Assembly: GCF_016907715.1 (NCBI RefSeq)
Contig: NZ_JAFBCM010000001.1
Coordinates: 992,001-1,056,000 of the forward strand
Origin: Tenggerimyces flavus
Lineage (GTDB): Bacteria; Actinomycetota; Actinomycetes; Propionibacteriales; Actinopolymorphaceae
Direction: 5' to 3'
DNA: 64,000 nt
Shown: piece by piece, positions 21,645 to 21,790 of the stretch
How positions within the stretch are numbered: position 1 is the stretch's first letter
Layout of the letters: every line of letters starts with the position of its first letter
Translations under genes and position numbers: made by a program
The notes under the pieces: generated by a model
Database searches by the model: none
Told to the model about the DNA's origin: nothing
What the model saw: only the letters and a program-made list of their open reading frames with translations

Positions 21645-21675
21645 GACCGTGACGACGCCCAAGGAGGTGAAACCC

Positions 21676-21735
21676 ATGAACGCAGTAGCGATGTGGGTGC
21701 TCCCTCTTCCCGTCATGGTTGGGCGACTGACGTAG
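21676..21735 (+). CDS. Putative 19-aa leader peptide upstream of rifampicin monooxygenase
   Basis: A 19-codon ORF encodes [19 protein letters not shown]. It starts at ATG 21676, five nt after a perfect AAGGAGGTGA Shine-Dalgarno (21661-21670), the best ribosome-binding site in the window, and ends at TAG 21733-21735. It lies 55 bp upstream of the monooxygenase ATG, and hairpins that overlap and follow it resemble an attenuator. The peptide has no known domain and is too short to be an enzyme; its translation is more likely regulatory. Whether the product is made is untested. Confidence 0.65.
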
Positions 21736-21772
21736 GTGTCGCCGGGAGTGCCACTCCACCCAGGCACTCCCG
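21696..21772 (+). promoter_or_regulatory. Attenuator-like alternative hairpins
   Basis: Terminator-like hairpin: CGGGAGTGCC (21743-21752) pairs perfectly with GGCACTCCCG (21763-21772) around a 10-nt loop, and ends just before the monooxygenase ribosome-binding site GAAAGG. Alternative hairpin: GGTGCTCCC (21696-21704, inside leader codons 7-10) pairs over all 9 nt, with two G-U pairs, with GGGAGTGCC (21744-21752). The two structures use the same strand and exclude each other. This is the classic segment 1:2 versus 2:3 layout. Confidence 0.6.
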
Positions 21773-21790
21773 AAAGGCAACACAACACCC

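Follow-up and report, generated by a model that had tools for sequence, protein, structure and literature searches.

A translated leader with mutually exclusive hairpins upstream of a rox gene of Tenggerimyces flavus is apparently one copy of an RNA family spread through actinomycetes

ErmC-type switches carry a short leader open reading frame (ORF) and four RNA segments. Pairing of segments 1:2 and 3:4 represents the OFF state, the alternative 2:3 pairing exposes the Shine-Dalgarno (SD) sequence of the regulated gene, and the position of the ribosome, which stalls in the middle of the ErmC leader, decides between the two. In actinomycetes, an upstream ORF (uORF) reads translation stress in the whiB7/wblC attenuator, which contains a Rho-independent terminator (PMC11550727). 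Lincosamide, streptogramin A and pleuromutilin drugs stall ribosomes at the start codons of Streptomyces uORFs, including those of the ARE5 genes tiaA and are5sc, for which attenuation by a premature terminator has been proposed (PMC12421871). The rox gene of S. venezuelae is controlled by the RAE, a 19-bp DNA palindrome that overlaps the promoter and marks rifamycin-inducible genes (PMC10719064). IF3 represses near-cognate start codons in Streptomyces, as in infC (ATT/ATC) and sigR (GTC), where the regulated gene's own start codon is the near-cognate one (PMC5472188).

The window, which is the whole 64,000-nucleotide stretch of T. flavus DNA analysed here, contains a rox gene preceded by a leader whose sequence is unrelated to that of ErmC. 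Like ErmC, it combines a leader ORF behind a strong ribosome-binding site (RBS) with a hairpin that hides the SD of the downstream gene. The sequence-only reading had described a 19-codon leader ORF with a strong SD upstream of rox, which is confirmed by direct reading. The features are listed below in window coordinates.

21601-21638, + strand: WblC/WhiB7-like promoter (GAAAGG 21601-21606; -35 TGGACG 21609-21614; 18-nt spacer; -10 TAGCTT 21633-21638)
21647-21653, + strand: 5´ arm CCGTGAC of helix H1, which pairs with 21712-21718 and encloses the leader RBS; 95% of cells paired in the aligned leaders
21661-21670, + strand: leader SD AAGGAGGTGA, read directly; GGAGGTG is invariant across the 58 rox leaders
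21672-21677, + strand: segment 1, ACCCAT, the 5´ arm of helix H3, which overlaps the leader start codon and pairs with 21693-21698; 98.5% of cells paired
21676-21735, + strand: leader ORF of 19 codons (ATG 21676, TAG 21733-21735)
21696-21704, + strand: segment 2, GGTGCTCCC (codons 7-10), the anti-sequestor arm, which pairs with 21744-21752 (helix H5; 99.8% of cells paired) or, partly, within H3
21722-21727 with 21738-21743, + strand: helix H6, GGCGAC/GTCGCC, whose loop contains the stop codon of the leader and which excludes the outer stem of H4; 99.1% of cells paired
21744-21752, + strand: segment 3, GGGAGTGCC, which pairs upstream (H5, ON) or downstream (H4, OFF)
21763-21777, + strand: segment 4, GGCACTCCC (21763-21771) followed by the rox SD GAAAGG (21772-21777), the RBS-hiding arm of H4
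21791-23248, + strand: rox, the regulated gene, encoding a Rox-type FAD monooxygenase

The assignment of the downstream gene to the rifampicin-monooxygenase type, made earlier from the letters, holds by a narrow margin: the product scores 813.1 bits against the rifampin monooxygenase model NF033145 (cut-off 800), and its best PDB match is the rifampin monooxygenase 5vqb. A PADLOC search gave no match.

The two competing pairings of segment 3, a perfect 10-bp stem (21743-21752/21763-21772) and a 9-nt pairing with leader codons 7-10 (21744-21752 with 21696-21704), are present in the window at the positions first proposed. Folding of the free window RNA predicts H3, in which the leader start is paired with codons 6-8, and H4 with probabilities of 0.95 and 0.87, and H5 with a probability of about 0; as a single sequence, the leader folds mildly better than its shuffles (z -2.3). 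The stem had also been taken as terminator-like and the locus as a case of ribosome-mediated transcription attenuation, and neither claim survives. A terminator search found no intrinsic terminator after the window stem, which is followed by GAAAGGCAACAC instead of a T-run. Because the downstream arm of H4 runs into the rox SD without a run of T's, the stem is best read as an RBS-hiding translational attenuator rather than a transcription terminator. In this respect the leader differs from the whiB7/wblC attenuator and from the mechanism proposed for the ARE5 uORFs, which also precede other genes.

To place the leader among its relatives, the sequences preceding rox were compared at 88 loci drawn from many genera. 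The same leader is present at 58 of them (60 once L011 and L012 are re-oriented), which puts the feature far beyond chance, and mutually exclusive structures behind a translated leader, first noted in the window, thus occur in relatives too. The leader frame is open in all 58 rox leaders, with the first stop codon between +36 and +66, and the leader start lies at a near-constant distance of ~110 nt from the rox start. A covariance model built from these 58 leaders was used to search 392 genomes of the order and 395 of the class, and it matched 77 and 111 genomes, respectively, the latter from 41 of 138 genera. We fetched 198 matched places, a sample that does not exhaust the families, and all 194 readable downstream genes fall in six families: rox, alpha/beta-hydrolases (about half), GNAT acetyltransferases, patatins, PrmC-like N5-glutamine methyltransferases (TIGR03704, 416.9 against a cut-off of 248.8) and IF-1 (TIGR00008). 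The last is a second infA in all four genomes concerned (L162, L163, L172 and L202). A second covariance model, built from the PrmC leaders only, recovered the window leader at an E value of 4e-9. No Rfam covariance model matches the leader and no description of the element was found in open-licence PMC papers, and the window leader is apparently one copy of an undescribed RNA family spread through actinomycetes. Unlike ErmC, the family serves six unrelated kinds of gene, translation factors among them.

The expectation that relatives would show a conserved ORF and covarying stems is borne out for the ORF and for H4. When the own arms of H4 were compared with permuted arms in an arm-swap test, the helix covaried across families in both its outer (z -10.4) and inner (z -7.0) parts, with arms such as GGTGT/ACACC in rox, GGTCGT/ACGACC in many hydrolases, GTCGCC/GGCGAC in patatins and GGTCTC/GAGACC in IF-1. 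The same test gave no clear signal for H1, H3 and H5 and a weak one for H6, since these helices hardly vary. H5, the counterpart of the alternative ErmC pairing, is almost invariably paired but shows no covariation and is weak at equilibrium. The perfection of the 10-bp stem is nearly private to the window copy; a C.A mismatch is kept there in 53 of the 58 rox leaders, at a base that is paired in H5, which argues that H5 is probably under selection.

The leader peptide offers a different pattern. Among 223 leaders, three different frames run through segment 2, GGGTGCTCC, giving WVLP in 183, VGAP in 28 and GCS in 12, while the leader start and stop positions remain unchanged; the C-terminus also shifts frame freely. 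Given this drift between fixed ends, it is the RNA and the passage of a ribosome that are conserved and not the peptide as such, again unlike ErmC. A nascent chain whose WVLP core, together with a small molecule, arrests the ribosome that makes it would explain the predominance of the WVLP frame, which is already accounted for by RNA pairing. With the other two readings of the same nucleotides and the drifting C-terminus against it, such an arrest peptide is very improbable.

We assign a probability of about 0.6 to an ErmC-like switch in which ribosomes held at the leader start turn the gene on. In the free mRNA, segments 1:2 and 3:4 would be paired and the rox SD hidden (OFF). During normal translation of the leader, segment 2 would be covered and 3:4 would stay formed, which also leaves the gene OFF. 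A ribosome held on codons 1-2 would instead cover segment 1 and free segment 2 to pair with the emerging segment 3, and this 2:3 pairing would keep the rox SD open for translation (ON). The predicted stall thus lies at codons 1-2, in contrast to the mid-leader stall of ErmC. Instead of rifamycin, the switch would sense ribosomes that stop during initiation or directly after it, an arrest that many ribosome-targeting antibiotics cause.

The proposal of arrest at initiation derives from the folding calculations, together with the published arrest at uORF start codons in Streptomyces. Switching was gauged by helix probabilities, as the accessibility of the SD is uninformative with its GAAA lying in a bulge. 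In runs on a transcript truncated behind segment 3, for which the energies are model values, the probability of H5 was 0.14 overall without a ribosome (0.50 in PrmC) and rose to 0.93 and 0.72 with a ribosome on codon 1 and codon 2, respectively; this codon 1-2 effect is predicted in all six families. With the ribosome on codons 4-12, H5 fell to about 0. In the full-length RNA, the OFF hairpin prevails at equilibrium (0.85-0.94) even when a ribosome occupies the start codon, so the ON state would have to be kinetic or aided by later ribosomes.

In the same truncated runs, H5 is also favoured by a ribosome on codons 15-17 (0.5-0.6 at 15-16). In the earlier folding of the leader, the outer RBS stem is lost when the ribosome occupies codons 16-20. 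These positions matter for an alternative in which slow termination is the signal: a ribosome at the leader stop would melt H6 and the outer part of the RBS hairpin, and rox would be translated by coupling or re-initiation. In its favour, almost every copy places the leader stop codon -10 to -17 nt from segment 3, and one of the regulated families is PrmC-like. PrmC-type methyltransferases act on release factors. Slow termination leaves the codon 1-2 response in every family unexplained, as well as the near-cognate start codons described below, and we consider it rather unlikely.

The start codon of the leader varies between families. Rox, GNAT and patatin leaders start with ATG or GTG, whereas 0 of 36 PrmC-like leaders do; these start with ATT (23), ATC (10), GTT (2) or GTC (1). 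For 32 of these 36 leaders, the first stop of the leader's own frame falls between +42 and +66; for the other two frames the counts are 6 and 0. These near-cognate leaders before TIGR03704 genes (L329-L353 and L354-L386) form a natural set in which the frame is open. ATC or ATT starts also occur in 11 hydrolase leaders. A group of hydrolase leaders (L388-L408) has an ATC start and a compact leader, INAVTGRGSL..*, with a stop codon that overlaps segment 3. As in infC and sigR, the ATT, ATC and GTC codons stand behind a very strong SD, with the difference that here they start the leader instead of the regulated gene.

The near-cognate starts of the PrmC-like and some of the hydrolase leaders, the second IF-1 among the leader-controlled genes and the repression of such starts by IF3 (PMC5472188) would fit a leader that reports the activity or supply of IF1/IF3, with antibiotics acting merely indirectly. 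The ATG or GTG starts of the rox, GNAT and patatin leaders speak against it, and a fidelity sensor of this kind is distinctly unlikely as a general account. We put at slightly less than even odds the broader view that a single RNA family, present across actinomycetes, monitors ribosomes at just one position, the start codon, and passes the signal to both unrelated putative detoxifying enzymes and translation factors (the second IF-1 and PrmC-like proteins), with the ATT/ATC branch making initiation fidelity an input. If true, initiation at ATT/ATC would serve as a signal in a natural system, poorly understood enzyme families would gain a context in antibiotic or translation stress, and DNA alone would suffice to recognize both a translation-stress regulon and a riboregulator that is widespread yet uncatalogued.

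The promoter suggests a second link to translation stress. In the window, transcription is predicted to start at ~21645/21646. The promoter fails the strict WblC consensus, GAAAWY..TKGMNN-N16-19-TANNNT (PMC7157823), and passes a relaxed pattern, which was written after inspecting the sequences and matches ~0.1% of shuffles. The relaxed pattern is found in 47 of 58 leader-rox promoters, 35 of 40 GNAT, 52 of 97 hydrolase and 3 of 4 IF-1 promoters, and in 0 of 21 patatin and 0 of 18 PrmC promoters. We infer that WblC-like promoters would tie the leader genes to translation stress, so that, under the stress that holds ribosomes at the leader start, transcription from a WblC/WhiB7-like promoter would be induced as well. 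The leader would then resemble the whiB7/wblC attenuator, in which an actinomycete uORF likewise responds to translation stress, and the two may belong to one stress regulon.

The sequence-only reading had instead suggested rifamycin as the signal, with a stalled or slowed ribosome or a change in transcription-translation coupling as the trigger; slowed transcription would be a related route. The position of the leader before a rifampin-monooxygenase-type gene is what recommends this idea. The five non-rox families share the same leader, and no terminator is found. Moreover, the RAE palindrome is absent from the checked upstream regions of the window copy and all 58 leader-rox genes, while it is present upstream of most rox loci without the leader, including L002, L014 and L016; the two upstream elements never occurred together in the loci examined. 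Rifamycin sensing by the leader is therefore highly improbable, and translation stress appears the likelier signal. The absence of the RAE from leader-rox and its presence before most other rox genes suggest that rox genes are of two regulatory kinds, both of which are held by the genome of the window. Its second rox (L002; contig positions 342274-343698) is a 60% identical paralogue with a perfect RAE upstream.

The leader itself may have come to rox from another family. Many leader-rox proteins (e.g. L030, L035 and L127) are extended by ~40 N-terminal residues, which are homologous to the beginning of the leader-bearing hydrolase. For the 22 Rox extensions of at least 30 residues, the mean score against the hydrolase N-terminus was 106, compared with a shuffled mean of 31 and a highest shuffled score of 54; the extension of the window Rox has shrunk to 12 residues. 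Based on this match, rox seems to have acquired its leader and its 5´ end jointly from an alpha/beta-hydrolase gene, and a resistance-type gene would thereby have swapped its sensor by capturing the 5´ end of another gene. In a quick rox tree with many weak forks, 59 leader-rox genes fall inside one supported clade of 69. The mean identity to 5vqb is 66% for leader-rox and 73% for RAE-rox proteins. Seven Rox positions, 43, 52, 54, 55, 176, 385 and 406 (approximate 5vqb numbering), separate leader-rox from RAE-rox, and the substrate of the leader clade may be a different one. Compounds other than rifamycin may be what this Rox subclade responds to or acts on.
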